This document shows positions 5,821 through 48,165 of a stretch of DNA of 64,000 nt, piece by piece. This DNA is from Bacteroidota bacterium. GTDB taxonomy: Bacteria > Bacteroidota > Bacteroidia > B-17B0 > Aurantibacillaceae. The position numbers and the translations under genes are program-made. How positions within the stretch are numbered: the first letter of the stretch is position 1; each line of letters opens with the position of its first letter. The stretch is taken from assembly GCA_018267825.1 (NCBI GenBank), contig JAFDXR010000011.1, positions 124,001 to 188,000 of the forward strand, given 5' to 3'. Under the pieces are notes generated by a model. The model saw only the letters and a program-made list of their open reading frames with translations, did not search any database and was not told the origin of the DNA.

Positions 5821-6927
5821 ATGAGCAAACAAAAAAAACGGAAGGACAAGAGTTTCTTTACTCCTGCCTCTCTTACTTTTTTAAAGAACTACATCAATAA
5901 CCCCTCTCCTACCGGATTTGAAACCGAAGGCCAGAAACTCTGGCTAAACTATATCAAGCCATACATTGATGCCTATTTCACCGATACCTATGGTACCGTG
6001 GTAGGCGTGATCAACCCATCAGCGCCATACAAAGTGGTGATTGAGGCACATGCCGACGAGATTTCATGGTTTGTACATTACATCACCAAAGACGGATTTA
6101 TCTACCTCCGCAAAAATGGCGGCAGCGACCACCAGATTGCACCATCCAAGCGTGTGAACATTCATACAGAAAAAGGTATTGTAAAAGGTATTTTCGGATG
6201 GCCTGCTATACACGTCAGAGATGCGGCCCGTGAAGAAACCCCTACACTGAAAAATATTTTCCTGGACCTGGGTTGCAAAAGCGACAAGGAAGTGGAAGAA
6301 CTCGGCGTACACGTAGGCTGCGTGGTTACCTATGAAGACGAATTCATGGAATTAAACGACCGCTATTTTGTGGGCCGTGCACTCGACAATCGTATCGGTG
6401 GCTTCATGATCGCTGAAGTAGCGCGCTTACTCAAAGAATCCAAAACAAAATTACCCTTCGGTCTTTACATTGTAAATGCCGTGCAGGAAGAGATCGGCCT
6501 GCGTGGTGCAGAAATGATCGCCCACAAGATCAAACCCAACGTAGCCATTATTACAGATGTGTGTCACGATACACAGTCGCCTATGATGAACAAAATCAGC
6601 AGCGGCGATCTGGCCTGCGGCAAAGGCCCGGTGGTGTCGTACGGACCGGCGGTTCAGAATAACCTGCTCAGGCTGATCATCGATACAGCCAAAAAATCAA
6701 AGATCGATTTTCAGCGCCAGGCCGCCAGCCGCAGCACAGGTACCGACACCGATGCGTTTGCATACAGCAACGACGGTGTAGCCTCTGCACTGATTTCACT
6801 GCCGCTTCGTTACATGCACACCACGGTTGAGAGTGTACACAAAGACGATGTAGCTTCTGTTATTAAACTTATTTTCGATACGTTAAAAAACATTAAGAAC
6901 AATCACGATTTCCGATACATCCGGTAA
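5821..6927 (+). CDS. M42-family metallo-aminopeptidase
   Basis: A 368-residue cytoplasmic dinuclear-metal peptidase of the M42 (tetrahedral aminopeptidase/FrvX) type. Visible metal and catalytic motifs in order: AHADEISW (first His/Asp ligand region, ~residues 78-85), GRALDNRIGG (bridging Asp, ~191-200), NAVQEEIGLRGAE (Glu-Glu pair with catalytic base), ITDVCHDTQSP (Asp ligand), and HTTVESVHKDDV (C-terminal His ligand). The length matches the family (~350-370). M42 enzymes form large dodecamers and clear short peptides. There is no signal peptide. ATG at 5821 follows an 83-nt gap, so the gene may have its own promoter, although I see no clear TAnnTTTG. Confidence 0.9.
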   Translation: MSKQKKRKDKSFFTPASLTFLKNYINNPSPTGFETEGQKLWLNYIKPYIDAYFTDTYGTVVGVINPSAPYKVVIEAHADEISWFVHYITKDGFIYLRKNGGSDHQIAPSKRVNIHTEKGIVKGIFGWPAIHVRDAAREETPTLKNIFLDLGCKSDKEVEELGVHVGCVVTYEDEFMELNDRYFVGRALDNRIGGFMIAEVARLLKESKTKLPFGLYIVNAVQEEIGLRGAEMIAHKIKPNVAIITDVCHDTQSPMMNKISSGDLACGKGPVVSYGPAVQNNLLRLIIDTAKKSKIDFQRQAASRSTGTDTDAFAYSNDGVASALISLPLRYMHTTVESVHKDDVASVIKLIFDTLKNIKNNHDFRYIR

Positions 6928-6974: not shown

Positions 6975-8504
6975 ATGGCCCTGTTAGGTTCTATATTAAA
7001 AACAGCCGTTGATATCCGTGGTAAAATGCCCAAACGGGGGAATTTTTATGCCCAGCAAAAAAAGACCCTGAAGAAACTTCTGAAGAAGGCAGAGCATACC
7101 GCTTTTGGAGAACATTATCATTTTTCAAAACTTCTGAATGAGAAGGACCCCGTTGCTGCATTTCAATCGACCGTAAAAACACACGATTACAGCAGCATGT
7201 ATAAAGAGTGGTGGTTCCGCTCATTAAAAGGCGAACCTTTTGTTTGCTGGCCCAACCATACCAAATACTTCGCATTAAGTTCAGGCACCTCCGAATCATC
7301 GAGTAAATATATTCCCGTTACAAAAGACATGCTGCGGGCTTTCAAAAAAGGAAGTGTACGCCAGATGCTGGCAATGGCCCATTACGACCTGCCCAATGAG
7401 CACTTCCAGAAATCTATGCTCGCCATTGGCGGCAGTACCATGCTCGATTTTAACGGCACCTATTTCCAGGGCGATCTCAGCGGCATTACAGCGGCCAATA
7501 TCCCACTCTGGTTTCAGCATTATTACAAACCCGGAAAAACCATTTCGCGTTACAAAGACTGGGATACCAAACTCCATGAAATTGTAAAAAACGCAAAGGA
7601 CTGGGATATCGGCATTATTGTGGGTGTTCCGGCCTGGGTGCAGATTCTCATGGAACGCGTGATTGAACACTACCAGGTAAAAACCATTCATGATATATGG
7701 CCGAACCTCCGCATCTATGTACATGCCGGTGTAGCCATTGGGCCATACATTAATAGCATTAATAAACTGACCTCTTTCCCACTCATATTCTCTGATACCT
7801 ACCTCGCTTCCGAAGGGCTTATAGCCTATCAGGAAAGGCCCAATGCAGAACAGGGCATGCGACTCCTGCTCGATAACGGGATTTTCTTTGAGTTTGTGCC
7901 TTTCAACGAAGAGAACTTCGACAGCGACGGCGCCATGCGTGAAAAGGTGAATGCATTAAGCATCCGTGATGTGGAGTTGGGCAAGGAATATGCACTGCTA
8001 CTCTCTACCTGTGCCGGAGCCTGGCGTTACCTGATCGGCGACGTGGTGCGCTTTACCGATCTCGATCATGCCGAAATTGTGATTACAGGCCGCACGAAGC
8101 ATTTTCTCAGTCTTTGCGGCGAACACCTTTCGGTAGATAACATGAGCCGCGCCATCAGCTTAACAGCTGATGAGCTGAATATAGAGATCAACGAATTTTG
8201 TGTGGCCGGCATTCCGCATGGCACACTCTTCGCACACCACTGGTTCGTTGGCAGCAATGTTCCTGTAGATGAAACTGCTTTGAGAAATAAAATTGACAAC
8301 CACCTCAAAGAAATAAACGACGATTACCGGGTGGAACGTATTTCGGCATTGAAAGATGTATTTGTAACCGTATTACCCGACAGTGCCTTCATCGATTTTA
8401 TGGCCTCAAAAGGTAAGCTGGGCGGGGCTTTCAAATTTCCGCGTGTCGTAAAAGGAAAACAACTTGAAGAATGGGAGGAGTTTATAAAGCAGTATAAAAA
8501 ATGA
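6975..8504 (+). CDS. GH3-family acyl-acid amido synthetase
   Basis: A 509-residue member of the GH3 family of the ANL adenylating superfamily. Plant GH3 enzymes adenylate a carboxylic acid such as a hormone and join it to an amino acid; bacterial members have few known substrates. The ATP/P-loop motif is ALSSGTSESSSKYIPVT (residues ~99-115). Later come FSDTYLASEG (middle motif), YRYLIGDVVRFTD-like WRYLIGDVVRF, and ITGRTKHFLSLCGEHLS, the hinge leading into the small C-terminal domain. No signal peptide. The stop overlaps the start of the LysE exporter gene by ATGA, so the two are translationally coupled, which suggests that substrate or product is an amino acid or amino acid conjugate (inference). 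Confidence 0.88.
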   Translation: MALLGSILKTAVDIRGKMPKRGNFYAQQKKTLKKLLKKAEHTAFGEHYHFSKLLNEKDPVAAFQSTVKTHDYSSMYKEWWFRSLKGEPFVCWPNHTKYFALSSGTSESSSKYIPVTKDMLRAFKKGSVRQMLAMAHYDLPNEHFQKSMLAIGGSTMLDFNGTYFQGDLSGITAANIPLWFQHYYKPGKTISRYKDWDTKLHEIVKNAKDWDIGIIVGVPAWVQILMERVIEHYQVKTIHDIWPNLRIYVHAGVAIGPYINSINKLTSFPLIFSDTYLASEGLIAYQERPNAEQGMRLLLDNGIFFEFVPFNEENFDSDGAMREKVNALSIRDVELGKEYALLLSTCAGAWRYLIGDVVRFTDLDHAEIVITGRTKHFLSLCGEHLSVDNMSRAISLTADELNIEINEFCVAGIPHGTLFAHHWFVGSNVPVDETALRNKIDNHLKEINDDYRVERISALKDVFVTVLPDSAFIDFMASKGKLGGAFKFPRVVKGKQLEEWEEFIKQYKK

Positions 8505-9148
8505 ACCTGTTCTTAAGTTTAATATCACAGGGCCTGGTGATGGTGCTGTTGCTGACGTTCTCGTTTGGCCCGGCATTTTTTTCACTCATCAATACCGGCA
8601 TCAAGCATGGCTACAAGCCTGGCTCCCTGTTGGCTACCGGTGTGGTATTAAGCGATTTCTTTTTATGTGTGGGTATTTGCCTGCTTGTGCATTACGGTGC
8701 GGCTAACCTGCTACACTCCGAGAAAGCACAGACGTTTTCAGCCATTGTGGGCGGCATTATTCTTATTGTATTCGGCGCGTTCTATTTCAAAAAACATGTT
8801 ACACGGTCGGAAGAGTCTATCGACATCGAATACCAGGCTCCGCATCCAGGGCTCTTGATCCTGAAAGGCTTTCTGCTCAATATTTTCAATCCGGCCGTAT
8901 GGTTCCTGTGGCTGGGTAACGTTACCGCCATTGGCAAATCGCTCGACTACTCATTTTTCAAAATGATTCTTTTCTTCTCGGTTGTGCTTACAGCCGTATT
9001 ATTTATTGAGCTTGCCAAAGTATCACTGGCCGGAAAAATCAAGCATATTCTCACCGATCGCCTCATGACTATTGTCAATTACATTACCGGTGCCGCCCTG
9101 ATCGTCTTCGGACTTGTTTTAATTTATAACCATTACTTCTCGAAATAA
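8501..9148 (+). CDS. LysE/RhtB-family amino-acid exporter
   Basis: A 215-residue inner-membrane protein of the LysE superfamily, which exports amino acids or small amino acid derivatives by proton exchange. About six hydrophobic segments are visible; the first contains the family signature (LLLTFSFGPAFFSLINTGIKHG, residues ~17-38, G-P-A). A short charged loop (HVTRSEESIDIEYQAPH) separates the halves, and LLNIFNPAVWFLWLG is the second family signature with N-P. The start overlaps the GH3 stop (ATGA) and the stop overlaps the next start (TAATG), so the three genes form one coupled unit. The substrate is unknown. Confidence 0.88.
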   Translation: MNLFLSLISQGLVMVLLLTFSFGPAFFSLINTGIKHGYKPGSLLATGVVLSDFFLCVGICLLVHYGAANLLHSEKAQTFSAIVGGIILIVFGAFYFKKHVTRSEESIDIEYQAPHPGLLILKGFLLNIFNPAVWFLWLGNVTAIGKSLDYSFFKMILFFSVVLTAVLFIELAKVSLAGKIKHILTDRLMTIVNYITGAALIVFGLVLIYNHYFSK

Positions 9149-9417
9149 TGCCTGGTCAATTCGACGAACTCCGTAAAAAACTGGAAGCGCAACTTACATT
9201 CCCTTCCATTTACATGTTCAAATTTATACTCAAGTCCGACAACCGTAAAATGGCACTGATCGAGAGCATGTTTGAAGAAGATGCCGACATCATTCAGAAC
9301 CAATCGGGCAAAGGTAATTTCACCAGCATCACCGTGAAACAGATTGTGATGAGCGTCGATGAAATTATCGCCATCTATGAACGTGCAGCCCAGATCGAAG
9401 GTGTGATGAGTTTATAA
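9148..9417 (+). CDS. DUF493-family small protein
   Basis: An 89-residue protein of the DUF493 (YbeD-like) family, recognised by the ACT-like pattern FPSIYMFKFILKSDNRKMALIESMF near the N-terminus and SGKGNFTSITVKQIVMSVDEIIAIYERAAQIEGVMSL at the C-terminus (quoted in two parts: SGKGNFTSITVKQ, then VDEIIAIYERA). The fold is a ferredoxin-like alpha/beta sandwich related to regulatory ACT domains; the function is unknown. The start codon shares one base with the LysE stop. Its TAA stop is followed directly, in the same frame, by what looks like the N-terminus of the next protein. Confidence 0.8.
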   Translation: MPGQFDELRKKLEAQLTFPSIYMFKFILKSDNRKMALIESMFEEDADIIQNQSGKGNFTSITVKQIVMSVDEIIAIYERAAQIEGVMSL

Positions 9418-9426
9418 CTTAATCCT

Positions 9427-10296
9427 ATTTATACACTAGAAAATAATCAGCTCCGCGTGTCCGTCAAATCTGCCGGTGCGGAAATGTGCTCCCTCTATTC
9501 CAAAACAAATCAGCTTGAGTACCTGTGGCAGGCCGATCCTGCCGTTTGGGCGCGTCATGCACCAATCCTGTTTCCTATTGTGGGCAAACTGAAAAACAAC
9601 AGCTACCATTACCAAGGGACGAATTATACCTTACCTCAACATGGTTTTGCGCGCGATATGGAATTTCGTTGCGTAGAACAAAATGAAACACAACTCCTGT
9701 TTGAGCTTGTTGATGATGAAACCACGTTTAAGGTATACCCGTTTCATTTCAGCCTTATTGTAGGTTATGAACTGCGCGAACAAACCCTGCTGATCTCCTA
9801 TACTGTTTTTAATCCGGCCAATGTACCGATGTATTATTCCATCGGCGCTCACCCCGGATTTAATTGCCCGCTGATCCCGGGCGAGCAGATGGAAGACTAT
9901 ACACTGACCATTGCACCTGCTACTACACTTCAATGCAGCTCCCTGCAGGATGGCCTGCTGAGTGGAAACACGTATGATGTGCCACTTCAAAATCAGGTAT
10001 TACAGCTGTCGCCGGCGCTTTTTGCCAACGATGCGCTGGTGATGCTGAACAGGCAGGTTGATAAAATAAGCATGGCCTCCGGTAAAAGCGGACATGGTCT
10101 TGAATTAACCTCAGCCGGCTGGCCATGTTATGGGATCTGGTCGAAAAAAGGGAACGAAAAATTTCTGTGCCTGGAACCATGGCAGGGTGTGGCCGATAGC
10201 ATAAGCAGCGATGGTGATCTGACCGGCAAACCCTTTATTCACCAACTCGCACCACTGCAAACCGAGGTATTCACACATAGCATCCGGTTGTTTTAA
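9427..10296 (+). CDS. Aldose 1-epimerase (GalM)-like protein, LacX subgroup; unusual start
   Basis: A galactose-mutarotase-fold protein that would interconvert anomers of an aldose; the LacX-like subgroup has poorly defined substrates. Motifs: SAGAEMCSLYSK, YLWQADPAVWARHAPILFP, LPQHGFARDMEF (active-site His) and SIGAHPGFNCPL (second His), then LEPWQGVADS (probable general-base Glu region). The first GTG is at 9457, but family members normally begin with a strand like YTLENNQLRVSVK, encoded here at 9430-9468, upstream of that GTG. No ATG, GTG or TTG lies between the previous stop (9417) and this segment; ATT at 9427 or CTT at 9418 are the only candidates. I chose ATT 9427 for homology; GTG 9457 gives 279 residues. 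Confidence 0.8.
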   Translation: MYTLENNQLRVSVKSAGAEMCSLYSKTNQLEYLWQADPAVWARHAPILFPIVGKLKNNSYHYQGTNYTLPQHGFARDMEFRCVEQNETQLLFELVDDETTFKVYPFHFSLIVGYELREQTLLISYTVFNPANVPMYYSIGAHPGFNCPLIPGEQMEDYTLTIAPATTLQCSSLQDGLLSGNTYDVPLQNQVLQLSPALFANDALVMLNRQVDKISMASGKSGHGLELTSAGWPCYGIWSKKGNEKFLCLEPWQGVADSISSDGDLTGKPFIHQLAPLQTEVFTHSIRLF

Positions 10297-10306
10297 AAAT
10301 CATGTC

Positions 10307-11578
10307 ATGATAACGTCGCTTTTAAAACTCACCCTCAGGCAAAAAATAACATATAGCATTCTGTTTCTGTCAGTCATCTGTTACCTGGCTGTGGAAGCAG
10401 GTGGCACTGGCGATTTCCACATCTATATGTCGGCCTCTGCAGATCTTTTTCATGGGGAAAACATCTATCAGAAATTATACGGAACCGGTTTTCACTACCT
10501 CTACTCACTCTTTTTTGCCATCATTCTTTACCCGTTTACATTTCTGCCATTTTATTTTGTAAAGCTGGCCTGGCTGCTGCTCAATGCTTACCTGTTATAT
10601 CGTACCTTCCGGATCCTGTTTTCCTATTTCAGGGCGGATACGCTTTCTGCGCGAAGCAGATGGCTCTTCTATGCACTCACACTGATATTTGCTGCCCGTT
10701 TTATATACGAAAATTTTCATTACGGACAGGTCACCATTTTAATGTTGTTCTGTTGTGTCCAGGGTATTCACAGTATTTTTTACGGAGAGCGCTGGTGGTG
10801 GGGCTGTATACTCATTGCACTGGGTATTAATATCAAGCTGCTTCCGGTGGTGCTTATTCCATATCTGATTTACCGCGGTAAGTTCAAAGCCGCCGCCCTG
10901 ATTATTTTGACAGATGTGGTGCTGTGGCTAGTGCCGGTTTTGTGTATTGGTATAGAAAAAAATAATTTTCTGCTGTCAGAATGGTGGCACATAATGAATC
11001 CCTCAAATACAGAGCATGTGCTGGATGTGTCTGAACGAAGTTTTCACAGCCTTACCACATTATTATCGACTTTGTTTGTAAAAAATGTACCTGACGATTA
11101 TGCACTGCCACTACGAAGAAATCTCGCCGATGTTTCTATAGAAACGCTGCATATGATTATACTGGCGGTACGCCTTATCCTGGTGGCAGGCACAGCTTAT
11201 TTTCTTCGTACCTGGCCTTTCCGTGAGGCGACATCCAAAAGTTTTCAATTCAGGGAACTCGCTTATATTCTGGCATTGGTACCCCTTATTTTTCCGCACC
11301 AACAGCATTATGCATTCCTGTTTATCGTTCCTGCGGCCATGTTTGTGTGGTTCGACCTCATCAGTCAGTACAAACTCATGAGCATGGTAAAACGATGGTT
11401 CCTGATCATTGGCATGAGTATAACTTACCTGTGTTGCAATCTGAAACTGATTCTCGGGGGATTCAATCCTTATTATGAACATTACAAAATACTCACCTAC
11501 GGGGCCCTGCTTCTATTGATTCTGCTGGCATCCACACCATCAGCCGTTCGACGGTCTAATGCGCTTCAAGCCAGTTAA
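10307..11578 (+). CDS. GT87/DUF2029-like integral membrane glycosyltransferase
   Basis: A 423-residue polytopic protein with about ten hydrophobic segments. After the first segment comes GGTGDFHIYMSASADLFHGENIY, the region holding the acidic residue and the D-F-x-x-Y pattern typical of DUF2029/GT87 mannosyltransferase-like (GT-C fold) enzymes. FYENFHYGQVTILMLF-like RFIYENFHYGQVTIL is a second family signature, followed by GINIKLLPVVLIPYLIYR. Such proteins transfer a sugar from a polyprenyl-phosphate donor on the outer face of the inner membrane; donor and acceptor here are unknown. It starts 10 nt after the epimerase-like gene. Its 3' end overlaps polA tail to tail by 23 bp. Confidence 0.75.
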   Translation: MITSLLKLTLRQKITYSILFLSVICYLAVEAGGTGDFHIYMSASADLFHGENIYQKLYGTGFHYLYSLFFAIILYPFTFLPFYFVKLAWLLLNAYLLYRTFRILFSYFRADTLSARSRWLFYALTLIFAARFIYENFHYGQVTILMLFCCVQGIHSIFYGERWWWGCILIALGINIKLLPVVLIPYLIYRGKFKAAALIILTDVVLWLVPVLCIGIEKNNFLLSEWWHIMNPSNTEHVLDVSERSFHSLTTLLSTLFVKNVPDDYALPLRRNLADVSIETLHMIILAVRLILVAGTAYFLRTWPFREATSKSFQFRELAYILALVPLIFPHQQHYAFLFIVPAAMFVWFDLISQYKLMSMVKRWFLIIGMSITYLCCNLKLILGGFNPYYEHYKILTYGALLLLILLASTPSAVRRSNALQAS

Positions 11579-38010: not shown

Positions 38011-38112
38011 ATAATACGTAAATTCATAGAAAATTACAAACATTTTACGGGGGTTTAGCGGTGTCTTATGGAATCTTTCCGGTTTGTGCATCCTAGACTA
38101 AAAATTTCTCAT

Positions 38113-41100
38113 ATGAAGCTTCAGAAATCCTTCACCATTTTCCTTTTGTGCCTGGGTTCGGCACTACTTGCATTCAATTATTTATCACGCGGTTTCCGCG
38201 CTGAAGACTCGTCGATACTGGCTTATGGCCCTGGCGACAGTTATGAAAAATTATGGAAACGCGTAGACAGTTGCGCCAACAAAGGCCTGTCTGAAAGCGC
38301 CCTTAAGCTTGTAGAAGCCATTTACACCAAGGCTAAAAACGAAAACAATGCGGCCCAATTTGTAAAAGCAGTGATGCAACGGATGCGCTTTGAAAGCTAC
38401 CGCGAGGAATTTTCTCTGGAGAAATCCATTTTCAAACTGCGCGACGAGGCAGCAGCGGCCCACTATCCTATTAAACCAGTACTACAGAGCATCCTGGCCG
38501 ATTCGTACTGGCAGTATTTTCAGAATAACCGCTGGAAATTCTATAACCGCACACAAACCGTTAATTTCAAAAACGATGATATCGAAACCTGGGACCTCAA
38601 GGCCATTTCCCACGCCGTTATCAGCAATTACAAAGCTTCGCTGGAAAATGCCGACAGCCTGAAACGTACAAAAATTGACCTCTACAACGATGTGCTCATC
38701 CAGGGAACCAGCGAGTGCCGTCAGTGGCGCCCAACCCTTTATGATTTCCTGGCACACCGGGCTCTCGATTTTTTCATGAACTCCGAACCCGATGTGGCAA
38801 GACCGGCCAATCGCTTTACCGTAAATGAAGATGTTTACCTGAAAGCATATCCCGAATTCATACAAGCCACCATTGCTAATGCCTCTGACAGCCTCGAAAC
38901 CAAGTACTATGCCATGCAGCTGATGCAGGACCTCACCCGTTTTCACCAGAACGATGAAAAAACCGACGGCCTGATCGACATAGAGTTGAAACGACTCGAC
39001 TATGTACGCTCTGTGTCCCAAAACCCGAATAAGGATACACTTTACTACAACTCTATGAAAGCGCTGCAGTCCAGATTCAGTGCAAATCAGCGGGTAACCG
39101 AAATTGACTTCCGCCTTGCAAACTGGTTCCTGACCAAAGCCTCAGAATACAAGCCCCTGGAAGGTGATGCCTATAAATGGTATAAAAAAACAGCCAAAGA
39201 ACTGGCCGAAGCAGCCGTGAAAAAATTCCCGGAGTCATTTGGCGCCAGGGAGTGTAAAAACCTGATTCAAACCATCACAGCCAAAACCTATAACCTGGCT
39301 ATTGAAGAGGTCAACGAACCGAATAAGCCATTCCGCGCACTTCTTACCTCTGCCAACATCGGATCGCTTCATTTCAAAATTGTAAAAACAACACACCAGG
39401 AGTTACGCCGCCTGAACCGAACTGAATGGGGTGAAAAGCTTTACAATAAATACAACGCATTGCCGGCAGTCAAAACTTTTGACCAGGCACTGACTGACGA
39501 CGGTGACTTCCAGACGCACAACACAGAAATCAAACTGCCTGAATTGCCGGTGGGCTATTACGTTATCCTGGCATCGCTGAACCCGGACTTTAAATACGCC
39601 AACAATATAACTTCCTACGCCACCTGCGTGATGTCGGATATTGCAGACATTGAGCGCCGTCGCGACGATGATGGTTCTTATGATTTTTATGCGCTTCACC
39701 GCCAGACCGGGGAACCCCTGAAAAACATCAGCGTGCAGGTATGGTATGAAAAATATAACTATGTGAGCCGTGATTATGAGATTAAAAAAGGTGAAACCCT
39801 TAAATCCGATGACAAGGGCTATTTCAATATCAGCTATAAAAACGAAAGCGACCGCTCCTTCTATGTGGAGCTGATCAATGGTAACGATTCTTATTTCAAT
39901 GCCAACAGCTATTACACCTACAAGCCTTACCACGACGATTACTCCCGGATTCATTCCTACATTTTCACAGACCGCGCTATATACAGACCTGGCCAGACGG
40001 TTTATTTCAAGTCCATTGTGCTCGAAGGAAAATACAATGAGCCATCACACATCAAAGCCAACTACCCGGTAACGGTGACCTTTTATGATGTAAACTCTCA
40101 GAAGGTCAACTCCATGGATCTGACTACCAACGAATATGGTACGGTGAGCGGTTCGTTCGTGGCACCACAGGGTGTGCTCAACGGTCAAATGCGTATTACA
40201 GATAATTACGGCAATGTATATTTCTCTGTAGAAGATTATAAACGCCCGAAATTTGAAACTGATTTCGATGATGTGAAAGGATCGTTCAAACTCAACGATG
40301 AAGTTACTGTAAGCGGCAAGGCCAAAGCCTATGCCGGCAACGCCATCGACGGTGCCAAAGTCAGCTACCGTGTGGTAAGACGTGTGCAGTATCCATACTG
40401 GTGGTGGTGGTACCGCCCGTATTATAACACCAACCAGGAAACCGAAATCAGCAATGGTGAACTTACAACCAACGATACCGGTGCTTATATCATTCATTTT
40501 AAAGCGCTGCCCGATGCCAGTGTGTCCAAAAAAAGCCAGGCTACCTATCTCTACGAAGTATATGCCGATGTAACAGACATTAACGGTGAAACACACAGCA
40601 CGCAAGCTTCGGTTATTGTAGGATACCAGTCGCTGCAGCTAAGCCTCAGCAGCGATGAAACCATTGACAAAAGCAAGGCTGTGCCATTGCATATTAACAG
40701 TACAAACCTCAATGGTGTGGCTGAACCAACCAAAGGAAAATTCGTTATATACAAATTGAAGCAACCCGATAAGGTTTTCAGGCAACGCCTATGGGCACAG
40801 CCCGACAGGCATACACTGAGCCGTGAAGACTATTACAAAACATTCCCGAATGATCTTTATGCCGATGAGTCCAATCGCTATAAATGGGAAAAAGAAACCA
40901 AAGTGCTTGAAAAAGCCTTCGATACCGGCAGCAAAACGGAATATGACCTGGCCGCCGATTACAAAGGCCTGAGCCCGGGTGTGTATATGATCGAAGCCAG
41001 CTGCACCGACAAAACCGGTGAGGAAATAAAAGCCTTTACCTACATCAGTATTTTTGATCCGGCCGATAACAACATTCCGGAACAAAGTGCCGAATGGTTC

Positions 41101-44100
41101 TATTACCCAAAAACAAAAGCAGAGCCGGGAGAAACCCTTAGTTTCATTATGGCATCAGGCTATCCGAACACCAATTACCTTTATGAGATTGAACAAAACG
41201 GTAAAATAATAAACCCGGTTACACAAGCCTGTTCCATGAAACCGGTGAACATTCCTGTAAAAGAGGAATACCGCGGCAACATAGCGTTTCACACAACCTT
41301 TATGCGCTACAACCGCCTGTATACACGCAGCAATATTGTGTATGTGCCTTATACCAATAAAGAACTCGATATACAGTTTGAGACCTTCCGCGATAAACTG
41401 CAGCCCGGACAGGCTGAATCATGGAAACTGATCCTGAAAGACAAAAAAGGAGATCGTGCGATGGCGGAGCTCATGGCTGGCATGTACGATGCTTCACTTG
41501 ATGCCTTCGCCGCCAACAACTGGTACCTGAATATTTACCAGAGTTATTATGCCCGCCTCTACTGGGGTGGAAATGCAGGCCGCCAGAGCAACTCCACGGA
41601 GTTTTACAATCTGCCCTCGCATTATGTAAGTATGCCATCGCGCTATTACGATCGCCTGAATAATTTCGGTGTTCTCTTTTACAACCGCTATGGTTATTAC
41701 CGCGAGGGGGCCTATGAGGATAGCAATATGGCCTACACCTGGAATAGTGAAGGTGCAGCCGTCCCAATGGCAGCCGGCGAAACAACCGAGGTCGAACAAA
41801 GTGTTTCCAGGGCCCCCGGTGTGAAATCCATGGCAAAACTTGAAGAAAGCAAGCCCGACGGAGCCTTCAAAAATAATTTAACCACTGTTGCCACCGGCGC
41901 TACAGAAATACTCGGAGGCCAAAAGGGTAAGAACGGCGAACTTCGTGATGAAGATAAGGACGGTAAGGATAATGATATGCGTAACGTAAAAGCACGCAGC
42001 AACTTCAACGAAACAGCTTTCTTCTTCCCATGCCTGCAAACCAATGACCAGGGCGAAACGGTTATTCAATTCACTGTACCGGAAAGTCTTACCAAATGGA
42101 AAGTGATGGGACTGGCACACACCAAAGACCTGAAAATCGGTCGTTTTGAAAAAGAAGTGGTAACACAGAAAGACCTGATGGTACAACCAAATGCACCACG
42201 ATTTTTCCGTGAAAACGACCAGATGACCTTTATTACCAAAATTGCCAACCTTTCGGACAAAGCCCTGAACGGTGTTTCTCAAATTTTCTTTTACAATGCC
42301 CTCAGCGGACAGGACATCACCAAACAAGTGTGCGTTAGTTCTCCAACCGTTAGTTTTAGCAATGCCAAAGGTCAAACAGCCACTGCTGCCTGGGATCTTA
42401 CGATTCCGGAAGGCGTTCAGGCACTTACCTATAAAATTGTGGCAAAGGCCGGTAACTTTACTGATGGTGAAGAAATGGCCCTGCCGGTTCTTACCAACCG
42501 TATGCTCGTTACAGAAAGTATGCCTTTACCCATCCGCAGCAATCAAACCAAAGAATTTACGTTTGGCAAATTCGTGAGCCAGAACAACAATTCGACAACC
42601 CTCCGGAATCACTCCTACACCCTTGAGTTTACCGCCAACCCGGCCTGGTATGCCGTGCAATCGCTGCCTTACCTGATCGAGTATCCTTATGAATGTGTGG
42701 AACAAACCTTTGCCCGTTACTATGCCAATAGTCTGGGTTCATACGTGGCCAATTCGAAACCGAAAATCAAACAGATTTTTGATTCGTGGAAAATGACCAG
42801 CCCGGATGCCTTCCTCTCGAACCTCCAGAAAAACGAAGAGCTGAAAGCCCTTGTACTCGAAGAAACGCCATGGGTACTGGAATCGAAAAACGAAAGCGAA
42901 AATAAAAAACGCATTGCACTCCTGTTCGACCTCAACCGGATGGGCAATGAACAGGCACGCGCATTGAAAAAAGTTCTGAGCGCCCAATGCTCCAATGGTG
43001 GCTTCTGCTGGTTTGAAGGTGGTCCTGACGACTGGTATATGACCCAACACATTATTGCCGGTTTTGCGCACCTCGATAAACTTGGTGTGATCAAAATCCG
43101 TGAAAACAGCCAGATCTGGGATGCCATGAATAAAGCCGTGCGATACTGTGATAACCGGATGCGTGAAGAATACGAGTGGGTGAAAAAATACAACAAGGAT
43201 TACCTCAAAGAAAATCACCTGAGCTACATGGCCATTCAATACCAGTACATGCGCAGCTTCTATAAAGATATTGAAGTAAGCCATGCCAACAAGGAGCAAT
43301 TCGGCTATTACCAGAAACAGGAACAACTTTACTGGTTGCAGCAGGGACGATACATGCAGGGCATGATTGCCCTCAGCCTGAATCGCTATGCCGATACAAA
43401 AACACCAAAAGATATTATGAAATCGCTGAAAGAAAACTCCATCAACAGTGAAGAGATGGGTATGTACTGGAAGGAGAATTACGGTTTCTACTGGTATGAA
43501 GCTCCTATTGAAATGCAGGCGCTCATGATCGAAGCTTTTGACGAAGTAAGCAACGACACCAAATCGGTAGATGATCTGAAAACCTGGTTGATCAAAAGCA
43601 AGCAAACCCAGAACTGGGGCACTACACGGGCAACCACCGAAGCCATCTATGCACTCCTGCTCAAAGGTGGCGACTGGCTGAGTACCGAACCCAATGTCAC
43701 CATCACAGTAGGCGATATCAAGCTGGACCCTAAGAATGATCCGTCTCTGAAAGCAGAAGCCGGAACAGGCTATTTCAAAAAAGTGTGGACCGGTTCCGAT
43801 ATCAAACCGGCCAGTATGGGTAAAATAAAAGTAGAGAAAAAAGACCAGGGTGTAAGCTGGGGGGCTGTATACTGGCAGTATTTTGAACAACTCGATAAAA
43901 TCACGCCGCATGAAACACCTTTGAAAATCAAAAAGCAATTGTTCCTGCAAAAGAACACAGCCGGCGGGCCAGTGATCGAGCCGATCGTGGAAGGCACCAA
44001 ACTTCACCTCGGCGACAAGATCAAAGTAAGGATTGAGCTGCGCGTAGACCGCGACATGAACTACGTACACATGAAAGACATGCGGGCTGCGGGTTTTGAA

Positions 44101-44340
44101 CCAACCAATGTATTCAGCGGTTATCGCTGGCAGGACGGCCTGGGTTATTACGAAAGTACCCGCGATGCAGCCACTAACTTTTTCTTCTCTTACCTCAACA
44201 AAGGAACCTATGTGTTTGAATACCCGCTGGTGGTAAGCCAGTATGGCGACTTCAGTAACGGCATCACAACGATACAGTGTATGTATGCCCCTGAATTTAC
44301 CAGCCACAGCGAAGGTATCCGGGTAAAAGTGGCAAAATAA
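38113..44340 (+). CDS. Alpha-2-macroglobulin family protein with thioester motif
   Basis: A 2075-residue exported protein (2090 if read from ATG 38068). Signal segment SFTIFLLCLGSALLAFNYL follows the chosen start MKLQ; no lipobox Cys is seen. The N-terminal ~500 residues are helical and unassigned. An MG2 domain begins near ITDRAIYRPGQTVYFKS-like FTDRAIYRPGQTVYFKS (~residue 620). Asp/Gly/Lys-rich sequence before RSNFNETAFFFPCLQTNDQG may be the protease bait region (~1270-1300). The A2M core follows, with thioester motif YPYECVEQTFARYY (Cys at nt 42694; C-x-E-Q). Such proteins trap proteases in the periplasm. No pbpC gene, the common partner in Proteobacteria, is adjacent. An aromatic patch YPYWWWWYRPYYN lies near residue 760. 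Confidence 0.92.
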   Translation: MKLQKSFTIFLLCLGSALLAFNYLSRGFRAEDSSILAYGPGDSYEKLWKRVDSCANKGLSESALKLVEAIYTKAKNENNAAQFVKAVMQRMRFESYREEFSLEKSIFKLRDEAAAAHYPIKPVLQSILADSYWQYFQNNRWKFYNRTQTVNFKNDDIETWDLKAISHAVISNYKASLENADSLKRTKIDLYNDVLIQGTSECRQWRPTLYDFLAHRALDFFMNSEPDVARPANRFTVNEDVYLKAYPEFIQATIANASDSLETKYYAMQLMQDLTRFHQNDEKTDGLIDIELKRLDYVRSVSQNPNKDTLYYNSMKALQSRFSANQRVTEIDFRLANWFLTKASEYKPLEGDAYKWYKKTAKELAEAAVKKFPESFGARECKNLIQTITAKTYNLAIEEVNEPNKPFRALLTSANIGSLHFKIVKTTHQELRRLNRTEWGEKLYNKYNALPAVKTFDQALTDDGDFQTHNTEIKLPELPVGYYVILASLNPDFKYANNITSYATCVMSDIADIERRRDDDGSYDFYALHRQTGEPLKNISVQVWYEKYNYVSRDYEIKKGETLKSDDKGYFNISYKNESDRSFYVELINGNDSYFNANSYYTYKPYHDDYSRIHSYIFTDRAIYRPGQTVYFKSIVLEGKYNEPSHIKANYPVTVTFYDVNSQKVNSMDLTTNEYGTVSGSFVAPQGVLNGQMRITDNYGNVYFSVEDYKRPKFETDFDDVKGSFKLNDEVTVSGKAKAYAGNAIDGAKVSYRVVRRVQYPYWWWWYRPYYNTNQETEISNGELTTNDTGAYIIHFKALPDASVSKKSQATYLYEVYADVTDINGETHSTQASVIVGYQSLQLSLSSDETIDKSKAVPLHINSTNLNGVAEPTKGKFVIYKLKQPDKVFRQRLWAQPDRHTLSREDYYKTFPNDLYADESNRYKWEKETKVLEKAFDTGSKTEYDLAADYKGLSPGVYMIEASCTDKTGEEIKAFTYISIFDPADNNIPEQSAEWFYYPKTKAEPGETLSFIMASGYPNTNYLYEIEQNGKIINPVTQACSMKPVNIPVKEEYRGNIAFHTTFMRYNRLYTRSNIVYVPYTNKELDIQFETFRDKLQPGQAESWKLILKDKKGDRAMAELMAGMYDASLDAFAANNWYLNIYQSYYARLYWGGNAGRQSNSTEFYNLPSHYVSMPSRYYDRLNNFGVLFYNRYGYYREGAYEDSNMAYTWNSEGAAVPMAAGETTEVEQSVSRAPGVKSMAKLEESKPDGAFKNNLTTVATGATEILGGQKGKNGELRDEDKDGKDNDMRNVKARSNFNETAFFFPCLQTNDQGETVIQFTVPESLTKWKVMGLAHTKDLKIGRFEKEVVTQKDLMVQPNAPRFFRENDQMTFITKIANLSDKALNGVSQIFFYNALSGQDITKQVCVSSPTVSFSNAKGQTATAAWDLTIPEGVQALTYKIVAKAGNFTDGEEMALPVLTNRMLVTESMPLPIRSNQTKEFTFGKFVSQNNNSTTLRNHSYTLEFTANPAWYAVQSLPYLIEYPYECVEQTFARYYANSLGSYVANSKPKIKQIFDSWKMTSPDAFLSNLQKNEELKALVLEETPWVLESKNESENKKRIALLFDLNRMGNEQARALKKVLSAQCSNGGFCWFEGGPDDWYMTQHIIAGFAHLDKLGVIKIRENSQIWDAMNKAVRYCDNRMREEYEWVKKYNKDYLKENHLSYMAIQYQYMRSFYKDIEVSHANKEQFGYYQKQEQLYWLQQGRYMQGMIALSLNRYADTKTPKDIMKSLKENSINSEEMGMYWKENYGFYWYEAPIEMQALMIEAFDEVSNDTKSVDDLKTWLIKSKQTQNWGTTRATTEAIYALLLKGGDWLSTEPNVTITVGDIKLDPKNDPSLKAEAGTGYFKKVWTGSDIKPASMGKIKVEKKDQGVSWGAVYWQYFEQLDKITPHETPLKIKKQLFLQKNTAGGPVIEPIVEGTKLHLGDKIKVRIELRVDRDMNYVHMKDMRAAGFEPTNVFSGYRWQDGLGYYESTRDAATNFFFSYLNKGTYVFEYPLVVSQYGDFSNGITTIQCMYAPEFTSHSEGIRVKVAK

Positions 44341-44401: not shown

Positions 44402-44452
44402 GCATTAACACTTCTTCACTCATTGCTTCCTTTTTGGTTTCATCTATTTTTA

Positions 44453-44460
44453 TATCTTTG
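44453..44460 (+). promoter_or_regulatory. Putative -7 element of the T9SS cargo gene (TATCTTTG)
   Basis: TATCTTTG is an exact TAnnTTTG match, 27 nt before ATG 44488. TTTTTGG upstream (TTG at 44434-44436) gives a 16-nt spacer, somewhat shorter than the usual 19-21. Confidence 0.55.
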
Positions 44461-44487
44461 GTTACCTGTAATTTAACTCATAAGTAC

Positions 44488-47400
44488 ATGAGTATGAAAT
44501 GGATATTGCTTTTTCTGAACCTGTGTGTATGGCCGTTTATGGCGCATGCCGGCGGGCCCGTTGAGAAAGATCCCGTTTCGTATATAAACTATACACAAAA
44601 TAAAGGGCAGTGGGAATCCAATGTATTGTACAGGGCTGAGTTCAGGGGAGGCGTACTTTTTCTGGAGCAAAACGCCTTTACCTACCTGTTTTATCCGAAA
44701 GCCGGAATCCGGCAATTTCATGCACATGGAAAATCCGATGAGACCGATGCCTCTGCCGGAAGTACCATGTTTCATGCGGTACGTATGGAGTTTTCCGGAG
44801 CCAATCCACAGGCTGCCATACAGGCCGGAGAGTCGAATACCTTTTATGAAAATTATTACCTGGGCAACGACCCTTCCAAATGGGCTCACAGTGTGCAAAG
44901 TTTCAGGCATGTCAATTACCAGGAGCTCTATCCCGGCATTACCCTGAAGAGCTTTGGCCGCGGCAATAATATCCGCTACGACTTTGTGGTGGCGCCACAG
45001 GCCGATGTGTCCGCGATAAAGCTCACTTTCACCGGCCAGGATAAATTATTTCTGCGCGAAGGCAAACTGGTATTGCTCACTTCAGGCGGTGAAGTTATAC
45101 AGGAAGCGCCGGTAGCCTACCAGGATATTAACGGGCAACGCCACGTTGTGAAGTGTCAGTATATACTAACAGACAACAGTGTGGGTATTTCGGCAGGACA
45201 CTACAATAAAAATGAACCACTGATCATTGATCCGACCCTTGTATTTGCAACCTATACAGGCTCTACGGCCGACAACTTCGGCATGACCGCCACTTACGAT
45301 ATTGCAGGTAATGGTTATACCGCCGGTATCTGTTTCCATCCGGGCTACCCGGTTACTCCCGGTGCTTTTCAACCAGCCTATGCGGGTGGGGGCAGTATTT
45401 CCAATCCAAGCTTCGATATTTCCATCAGTAAATTCAATCCTGGCGGCACGGCTTTATTATTTTCCACATACCTCGGCGGTACCAATCTCGAATCGCCACA
45501 CAGTATTGTGGTGGATAATAATTACAACCTGATTGTATTCGGCCGCTCTGCTTCCGTGAATTTCCCTGTAACCAGCGGCGCCTACGACAACACCAACAAC
45601 GGGGGCTACGACCTGATCGTGACGAAATTCAACTCCACAGGTACTGCCCTGATGGCATCAACCTACCTGGGCGGAACACAGAGCGACGGTGTGAATGTGA
45701 ATGCAGCTGAAAATATTATCGGCGGACTCAAATACAATTATGCCGATGACGGACGCGGTGGCGTGCTGGTAGATAATCAGAATAATGTATACATCGCCTC
45801 ATGCACCATGTCGACCGATTTTCCAACCACACCGGGATGTCTGCAACCCGCCAATGCCGGCGGACAGGATGGCTGTGTATTTAAAATGAACCCAACACTG
45901 AGTTCACTCATTTACAGCACTTACCTTGGCGGAAGTGCCAACGATGCTGCTTACAATATTGCCCTCGATACCAAGAAACGACTGTATGTCACCGGTGGCA
46001 CCGAAAGTCCCGATTTTCCGACGACGGCCGGCGTACTGCATCCGAATTACATGGGCAATATCGACGGCTTCATTACGCATTTATCTACATCGGGCAATAC
46101 CATTCTGCGCTCCGGATATATCGGCACGCCCGACTACGATCAATCTTATTTTGTACAAACCGATCGTTTCAACAATGTATACCTGTATGGTCAAAGCCAG
46201 GGTGCTTACCCGATTACACCAGGTGTATTTGCCAACCAGAACAGCGGGCAATTCATTCATGAAATGGATTCTTCTTTATCCGTTACTGTATTTTCCACAG
46301 AGTTCGGTTCAGGACGTACTACGCCCGACATTGCACCGTCGGCTTTCCTGGTTGATAACTGCCAGAACATTTATTGTTCGGGCTGGGGCGGAACATTAGG
46401 CGGCTACAATGTGGCTACCAGTTCCACTTTCGGTATGACCACCACCACCAACGCTTATCAGCCGATTACCGACGGACAGGATTTCTATTTTATTGTGCTG
46501 GCCAAAAATGCAGCTTCCATTCTGTATGGTTCCTATTTCGGCGGCAACCTCAGCGCCGAACATGTGGATGGAGGTACCAGCCGTTTTGACAAAGCCGGTA
46601 TTGTATACCAGGCCATTTGCGAAAGCTGCGGCGGCCACGACGATATGCCAACTACTCCCGGTGCGTGGTCATCGACAAACAATTCCAGCAATTGCAACAA
46701 CGCCCTTGTGAAGTTCAAATTCGATATTCTGCAGACAGTTGCACAGCTGAGCACAAACCCGCAGACCACAACCGGATGCGCTCCTTTTGCGGTGCAGTTT
46801 GTAAACAACAGTGTCAATGCCATTCATTACAAATGGCTCTTCGGCGACAATACAATGTCTACCGCAACAAATCCCTCGCACACCTACACACAACCCGGAA
46901 GCTATACAGTAACCCTGGTTGCAACCGATTCATCGACCTGCAACATGGTAGATACAACGTATATTACCATTACCGTCAATCTGCCACTGTCATTAAGTCC
47001 AACGGTACCGATTGATATATGCAAAGGCGATAGCGTTACACTCGACATCAACCTGCCGAATAACGGAGCATACACTTATACCTGGTCGCCTGCCAATACG
47101 CTCAGTAATGCTTCTGTAACAACACCAACTGCCTGGCCATCGCAGAGCACCGAGTATATTGTTTCCATTACCGACAGCATGTGTCACAGTGTTATTCTTG
47201 ATTCCATATCGGTGCATGTGCATGGCGGGCTCACGCATATTGTGGAAGACCCTGCACACCTATGCATTGATGATACCGTAAAACTGAGTGCCAATGCGGT
47301 GTTCAGCAGCTACAACTGGAGTACCGGCCAACATGTGCCTGAGATCAACATTACCACACCGGGGCTTTATACATTAAACACAGTCGATAATTTTGGTTGC

Positions 47401-48165
47401 ACGGGATTTGATAGTATCCGGATTGGAAATTACACCCATGTACCAATAACCACTTACAGTGTGGCCTTATGCAAGGGACAGAGTATAAAACTCGAAACCA
47501 CTGAGGGGGATGATTACACCTATAGCTGGAGTCCGGCAAACCACCTGGATGATGCGGGCATATACAATCCGAATGCTTCTCCCGAAACAAACACACAATA
47601 CACGGTATCAGTTTATAACGGTCCCTGCCTGACGACCGGTGTATATACCGTTGTGGTGCATCCGATTCCGGCCCTGAGTGCAAGACCGGGCTACACCATG
47701 CTATTGCCGGGCGAAAGCGTGCAACTGCAGGCTACTGCCGACAGCACCTGTTACTGGTACCCGGGCTATGCCCTGAGCTGTACAAGCTGTTACAACCCGG
47801 TATCCGGCCCCGACAGCAACACCGTATATTATGTAAGTACCGTGAATCATTTCGGCTGCATCAATACCAGTTCGGTTGTTGTGAATGTTGAGCCTACATT
47901 TTATGTACCCAATTCATTCACGCCCAATGGCAACGGGCTCAATGATCTGTTCAGACCTGTGTTTACGGGCTACACCGAACTCGATGTTTACATTTTTAAC
48001 CGCTGGGGAGAACTGCTCTACCATTACAATACCCTGGATGGTGGCTGGGACGGCACATTTAAAGGTGGAAAATGCGAGATGGGTGTGTACGTATATAAAA
48101 TCACCGCCAAAGACTGGCGCAACCATGTGATTGAACGGGTAGGCTCTGTAACACTTGTCCGTTAA
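44488..48165 (+). CDS. Large T9SS type-B cargo protein with SBBP-like repeats and a PKD domain
   Basis: A 1225-residue secreted or surface protein. Signal peptide MSMKWILLFLNLCVWPFMAHA. The N-terminal domain (VSYINYTQNKGQWESNVLYR..., DUF7948-like) is followed by about eight repeats of an SBBP-type beta-propeller pattern (FSTYLGGTNLESPHSIVVDN, ASTYLGGTQSDGV, YSTYLGGSANDAAYNIALD, each with a NVYI/VTGG strand). A PKD domain lies at roughly residues 755-830 (APFAVQFVNNSVNAIHYKWL, FGDNTM, YTQPGSYTVTLVATD). Ig-like stretches with GxTYTWSPA motifs follow. The C-terminus (FYVPNSFTPNGNGLNDLFRP, then IFNRWGELLY, WDGTFKGG, GVYVYKITA) is the type-B T9SS sorting domain (CHU_C). Start chosen at ATG 44488, after the promoter; 44494 is also possible. 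Confidence 0.9.
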   Translation: MSMKWILLFLNLCVWPFMAHAGGPVEKDPVSYINYTQNKGQWESNVLYRAEFRGGVLFLEQNAFTYLFYPKAGIRQFHAHGKSDETDASAGSTMFHAVRMEFSGANPQAAIQAGESNTFYENYYLGNDPSKWAHSVQSFRHVNYQELYPGITLKSFGRGNNIRYDFVVAPQADVSAIKLTFTGQDKLFLREGKLVLLTSGGEVIQEAPVAYQDINGQRHVVKCQYILTDNSVGISAGHYNKNEPLIIDPTLVFATYTGSTADNFGMTATYDIAGNGYTAGICFHPGYPVTPGAFQPAYAGGGSISNPSFDISISKFNPGGTALLFSTYLGGTNLESPHSIVVDNNYNLIVFGRSASVNFPVTSGAYDNTNNGGYDLIVTKFNSTGTALMASTYLGGTQSDGVNVNAAENIIGGLKYNYADDGRGGVLVDNQNNVYIASCTMSTDFPTTPGCLQPANAGGQDGCVFKMNPTLSSLIYSTYLGGSANDAAYNIALDTKKRLYVTGGTESPDFPTTAGVLHPNYMGNIDGFITHLSTSGNTILRSGYIGTPDYDQSYFVQTDRFNNVYLYGQSQGAYPITPGVFANQNSGQFIHEMDSSLSVTVFSTEFGSGRTTPDIAPSAFLVDNCQNIYCSGWGGTLGGYNVATSSTFGMTTTTNAYQPITDGQDFYFIVLAKNAASILYGSYFGGNLSAEHVDGGTSRFDKAGIVYQAICESCGGHDDMPTTPGAWSSTNNSSNCNNALVKFKFDILQTVAQLSTNPQTTTGCAPFAVQFVNNSVNAIHYKWLFGDNTMSTATNPSHTYTQPGSYTVTLVATDSSTCNMVDTTYITITVNLPLSLSPTVPIDICKGDSVTLDINLPNNGAYTYTWSPANTLSNASVTTPTAWPSQSTEYIVSITDSMCHSVILDSISVHVHGGLTHIVEDPAHLCIDDTVKLSANAVFSSYNWSTGQHVPEINITTPGLYTLNTVDNFGCTGFDSIRIGNYTHVPITTYSVALCKGQSIKLETTEGDDYTYSWSPANHLDDAGIYNPNASPETNTQYTVSVYNGPCLTTGVYTVVVHPIPALSARPGYTMLLPGESVQLQATADSTCYWYPGYALSCTSCYNPVSGPDSNTVYYVSTVNHFGCINTSSVVVNVEPTFYVPNSFTPNGNGLNDLFRPVFTGYTELDVYIFNRWGELLYHYNTLDGGWDGTFKGGKCEMGVYVYKITAKDWRNHVIERVGSVTLVR

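Follow-up and report, generated by a model that had tools for sequence, protein, structure and literature searches.

In 2025, synthesis of N-acyl-ornithine from free fatty acids and ornithine, with ATP and Mg, was demonstrated for OlsH of the planctomycete Singulisphaera acidiphila (NCBIfam NF052613), a GH3-like lyso-ornithine lipid synthetase whose product is the lyso precursor in ornithine lipid formation (PMC12493201, in the part of that paper used here). OlsH showed no activity within living E. coli cells (PMC12493201). The same part reports more than 7500 bacterial matches, almost 90% of them in Bacteroidota; its authors considered the GH3 proteins of this phylum unlikely to make N-acyl-ornithine and expected several of them to use other amino acids (PMC12493201). 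The joining of acids to amino acids by GH3 enzymes, which the original prediction for the locus described below had presented as known in plants, is thus no longer a plant activity only. As for exporters, the LysE superfamily exports amino acids and homoserine lactones, the LysE and RhtB proteins characterised so far export free amino acids, and the GAP family of the same superfamily has been implicated in peptidoglycolipid transport (PMC4608589, in the part used here).

We analysed a window of 64,000 nucleotides, meaning the whole stretch of DNA under study, in which a GH3 gene is directly followed by a LysE gene. The relevant features are as follows.

5821-6927, + strand: M42 aminopeptidase, upstream of GH3 (Pfam E 1.4e-74)
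6975-8504, + strand: GH3-family acyl-acid amido synthetase, 509 aa, open reading frame ending in TGA (Pfam GH3, GH3_M, GH3_C)
7278-7307, + strand: ATP motif I, residues 102-111, SSGTSESSSK
7797-7814, + strand: ATP motif II, residues 275-280, TYLASE
8016-8042, + strand: ATP motif III, residues 348-356, GAWRYLIGD
8501-8504, + strand: ATGA overlap of the LysE start codon with the GH3 stop codon (from the sequence)
8501-9148, + strand: LysE/RhtB-type exporter, 215 aa (Pfam LysE, hydropathy, all-helical model)
9148-9417, + strand: DUF493 (YbeD/HP0495-like) protein, 89 aa (Pfam E 2.9e-08)

The reading frame coordinates bear out both the ATGA overlap between GH3 and LysE and the base said to be common to LysE and DUF493, the A at position 9148 belonging to the TAA of the former and to the ATG of the latter (a one-base overlap). 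Pfam likewise backs the three identities proposed for these genes. The epimerase and GT87 genes located downstream and the M42 peptidase gene located upstream all lie on the GH3 strand.

The GH3 N, M and C domains (PF03321, PF23571 and PF23572) were all detected above their curated cut-offs, with E values of 3.5e-27, 6.2e-17 and 3.9e-09, respectively. The definitions of the three ATP motifs, established for OlsH and JAR1, were taken from PMC12493201 (the part used here). Among the aligned homologues (20/20 in one set and 39/39 in the other), S103, G104, T105 and K111 of motif I, Y276, A278, S279 and E280 of motif II, and G348, R351, Y352, G355 and D356 of motif III were invariant. S103 corresponds to S115, the motif I serine that the S115A result marks as essential in OlsH (PMC12493201, same part). 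The closest PDB match of the AlphaFold model of the protein (mean pLDDT 79) was plant JAR1 (4epl; E 2.9e-22, TM 0.72, 17% identity in the structural alignment), followed by other plant GH3 structures. Since the motif residues are invariant and the model best matches JAR1, the protein has the fold and ATP site of an acyl acid amido synthetase, and it probably catalyses ATP-dependent amide bond formation. It shares its fold and nucleotide motifs with the plant synthetases JAR1, GH3.12 and GH3.5, from which it differs by its low identity. We know of no partner exporter for these plant enzymes.

The likeness to OlsH, the nearest bacterial family that has been characterised, includes the three ATP motifs with the essential serine, and the NCBIfam OlsH model matched the window GH3 protein over nearly its full length (residues 24-505). 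However, the score was 322.8 bits (E 3.4e-96), about half of the equivalog cut-off of 620, and a paralogous GH3 protein of the source genome was closer to OlsH (411 bits, also below the cut-off). The window protein was therefore rejected as OlsH itself. We call the GH3 group to which it belongs clade A. The OlsH model matched 20 of 20 clade members, and because the best E value (5.3e-105) was close to that of the window protein, none of those tested is likely to approach the cut-off. The genetic context may differ as well: in planctomycetes the operon partner of OlsH is the O-acyltransferase OlsI (PMC12493201, in the part used here), and the main text of that paper, searched for the terms LysE, transporter and flippase, contains none of them. 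None of the eight window proteins scanned with Pfam was an alpha/beta-hydrolase, a comparison in which OlsI was represented by its family and not by its own sequence. The second GH3 gene of the source genome is located at positions 8922-10445 of locus L080, where it follows genes that we take, from the look of their sequences, to be ispD-like and PHP/PolX-like.

The product of the second gene matched Pfam LysE (E 1.1e-18), and its length and six hydrophobic segments, revealed by hydropathy analysis, agree with the size of about 200 aa and the six transmembrane segments of the LysE family. Its structure model was all-helical (pLDDT 84). Comparison of this model with the PDB gave no match at E 0.001 or better, and comparison of the sequence with solved structures gave none at E 1. 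The protein thus resembles LysE/RhtB exporters (TC 2.A.75, 2.A.76), but scored well below the cut-off of the RhtB-type NCBIfam model (37.8 for a cut-off of 183.95), and its gene is tied to GH3. The GAP family (TC 2.A.116) belongs to the same superfamily and offers a lipid-transport precedent for such carriers, although it is distinct from LysE and prominent in mycobacteria (in the part of PMC4608589 used here). We infer that the window protein exports an amino acid or a derivative of one. The source genome contains two LysE-family genes, and a profile built for the paired type gave no match to the second.

Whether the two genes stay together in relatives was determined on the best 80 named genome loci of 593 confirmed stretches. 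Three ran off their contig, leaving 77 with at least 400 nt downstream of GH3. LysE lay directly 3' of GH3 on the same strand at 69 of these 77 loci; among the other eight, those of Telluribacter and Larkinella had LysE next to GH3 but on the opposite strand. Gap values of the same-strand pairs ranged from -48 to 169, the negative values possibly reflecting start codons placed too early; they were at most 53 in 63/69 pairs, and the ATGA overlap (gap value 0) occurred in 14/69. The pair was also present at 14 of 19 additional loci from further relatives, and in 37 of the 45 near-full-length clade-A GH3 genes found in 60 relatives (tables read by eye). Chryseosolibacter is one cultured relative that bears it. 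The two genes are thus neighbours in numerous environmental bacteria of only distant kinship. As this adjacency is conserved, tight and same-strand, the pairing is strongly supported, and the lack of adjacency in relatives that would have spoken against the original prediction was for the most part not observed.

To control for general conservation of gene order, all genes around GH3 were clustered in 99 loci. LysE was found in 84 of them (81 at position +1 on the same strand, two at +1 on the opposite strand, and one, L122, not placed), followed by M42 (34), DUF493 (22) and the epimerase (20). When GH3 identity was at least 70%, all four neighbours were retained (7/7). Between 60 and 70% identity, LysE persisted in 22/24 loci, as against 7/24 for DUF493, 5/22 for the epimerase and 8/22 for M42. 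Below 60%, the counts were 52/63 for LysE, 9/64 for M42 (counted within 600 nt), 8/59 for DUF493 and 7/58 for the epimerase. Gene order around GH3 thus decays with divergence, whereas the GH3-LysE pair largely does not. Contact between LysE and DUF493 was conserved solely among closer kin, and M42 was moderately conserved; DUF493, the epimerase and M42, which fade beyond close kin, were not retained as general members of the unit.

A second control used the paralogous GH3 group, taken from 20 other places and from the source genome itself. LysE was found beside none of these 21 genes, while the 124 clade-A rows (including three contig ends and three duplicates) comprised 92 with LysE on the same strand and two with LysE inverted. 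Clade A and the paralogue group separated at full support on a quick GH3 tree with long branches at its base. LysE linkage is therefore specific to clade A, and the two controls rule out chance adjacency, the pairing being far above chance across relatives. Within clade A, the tree showed 12 changes between the linked and unlinked states, and the linkage label was strongly clustered. Such clustering would be expected if the arrangement had been passed down from an early Bacteroidia ancestor and preserved by inertia or by a common promoter, with no shared pathway. The correlation between GH3 and LysE distances within pairs (r 0.61) is also what common descent alone would yield. However, the other neighbours tested scrambled across the same span, the spacing between GH3 and LysE is short in most pairs, and the two inverted loci, both from Spirosomataceae, hold LysE adjacent despite the inversion. 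We consider mere inheritance of gene order a poor explanation, with little chance of being the right one.

The linkage is conserved but not universal. In a phylum-wide draw of 247 genomes, 24 carried clade A at E 1e-95, and LysE was adjacent on the same strand in 8/24 when loci outside the window's own were considered. A well-supported GH3 clade of ten rows, seven of which belong to family f27, had no LysE alongside, and GH3 and LysE are unlinked in several lineages. Six loci without LysE in families f27 and f28 (L177, L178, L179, L183, L184 and L185) have, after GH3, a convergent gene for a protein of similar appearance and about 200 aa.

The phylum draw included 61 class genomes, and 52 of these contained the paired LysE type (counted from the listing), namely 23/24 of those with a clade-A GH3 and 29/37 of those without. 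This co-occurrence was not significant (Fisher one-sided p = 0.06), and strict co-occurrence was consequently dropped as support for the link. Among 23 clade-A genomes, linked and unlinked taken together, 22 still had a LysE of the paired type. As this type is common in genomes without clade-A GH3, the exporter has an independent existence and co-occurrence adds little. Moreover, mean identity among pairs was 36% for LysE compared with 58% for the GH3 partners; LysE being much more diverged, a single shared narrow substrate is not implied.

The persistence of this LysE clade without GH3 would suit an overflow function, in which LysE exports a free amino acid also used by GH3, for pool control or acid detoxification, and leaves the conjugate untouched. 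The characterised LysE and RhtB proteins cited above act on free amino acids, and in one Bacteroidales group GH3 adjoins lysS and is near gltX. These tRNA-synthetase neighbours are nevertheless limited to about ten loci, and overflow alone would explain neither the specificity for clade A nor the lack of LysE beside the paralogue. We judge this explanation unlikely. In the Bacteroidales group in question (L104, L108, L121, L126, L128 and L135), the clade-A GH3 gene follows the lysyl-tRNA synthetase gene in the vicinity of the glutamyl-tRNA synthetase gene; LysE is kept in L104 and is not there in the other five.

The adjacency points to export of the GH3 product by the LysE protein, without proving it. 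We favour the view that GH3 and LysE form a synthesis-and-export cassette for an N-acyl amino acid, a plausible reading to which we nonetheless give slightly less than an even chance. The GH3 protein would adenylate a carboxylic acid using ATP-Mg and then acylate an amino acid at its amine, so that an N-acyl amino acid results. The production of N-acyl-ornithine by OlsH makes the idea of an acyl-amino acid more plausible, and if OlsH is taken as a guide, a fatty acid conjugate is the most likely product. The LysE membrane protein, probably co-translated with GH3, would export this conjugate across the inner membrane. Against this view, no lipid-synthesis genes were prominent among ten neighbour clusters checked with Pfam. 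The make-and-export pair originally proposed is thus partly supported, by the conserved, tight, same-strand arrangement; exclusive dedication of LysE to GH3 is not supported, LysE being common without GH3 and the genes being unlinked in several lineages, and export is an inferred step.

Alternatively, nothing may be secreted: GH3 could make a membrane lyso-aminolipid which LysE flips to the periplasmic side for acylation or outer-membrane delivery. This possibility draws on the role of the OlsH product as a lipid precursor and on the involvement of GAP in peptidoglycolipid transport, both described above, as well as on the abundance of aminolipids in one Bacteroidota strain (PMC12927429, in the part used here). 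However, no O-acyltransferase was present among the conserved neighbour clusters checked. The source genome also has a PF13444 N-acyltransferase, so that a second route is not required. We take PF13444 to be the kind of N-acyltransferase used by GlsB/OlsB; its presence would agree with common aminolipids being made by a classical pathway of their own. On balance the membrane-lipid explanation appears improbable.

A conserved exporter partner would give the GH3 proteins of Bacteroidota a concrete and testable role in releasing or flipping acyl amino acids, compounds that can serve as membrane lipids, surfactants or signals. A broader version of the cassette, widespread in Bacteroidota, with N-acyl amino acids made by a GH3 synthetase and then released or flipped by a LysE-type carrier dedicated to this task, is more tentative, and we would put it forward only as a possibility. 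If true, it would assign an exporter to N-acyl amino acids in Bacteroidota, which we did not meet in the literature found, and a function to a large bacterial GH3 clade. Taken singly, GH3 and LysE are proteins of familiar kinds. Their conserved, clade-specific pairing did not come up in the literature found by a search for the two together, in which only the OlsH paper and the LysE superfamily paper were relevant and which covered neither bioRxiv nor most subscription journals.

Elsewhere in the window, positions 38068-44340 encode a bacterial alpha-2-macroglobulin-like protein of 2090 aa, and positions 44434-48165 a PKD/SBBP-repeat protein of 1243 aa with a type IX secretion C-terminal domain.
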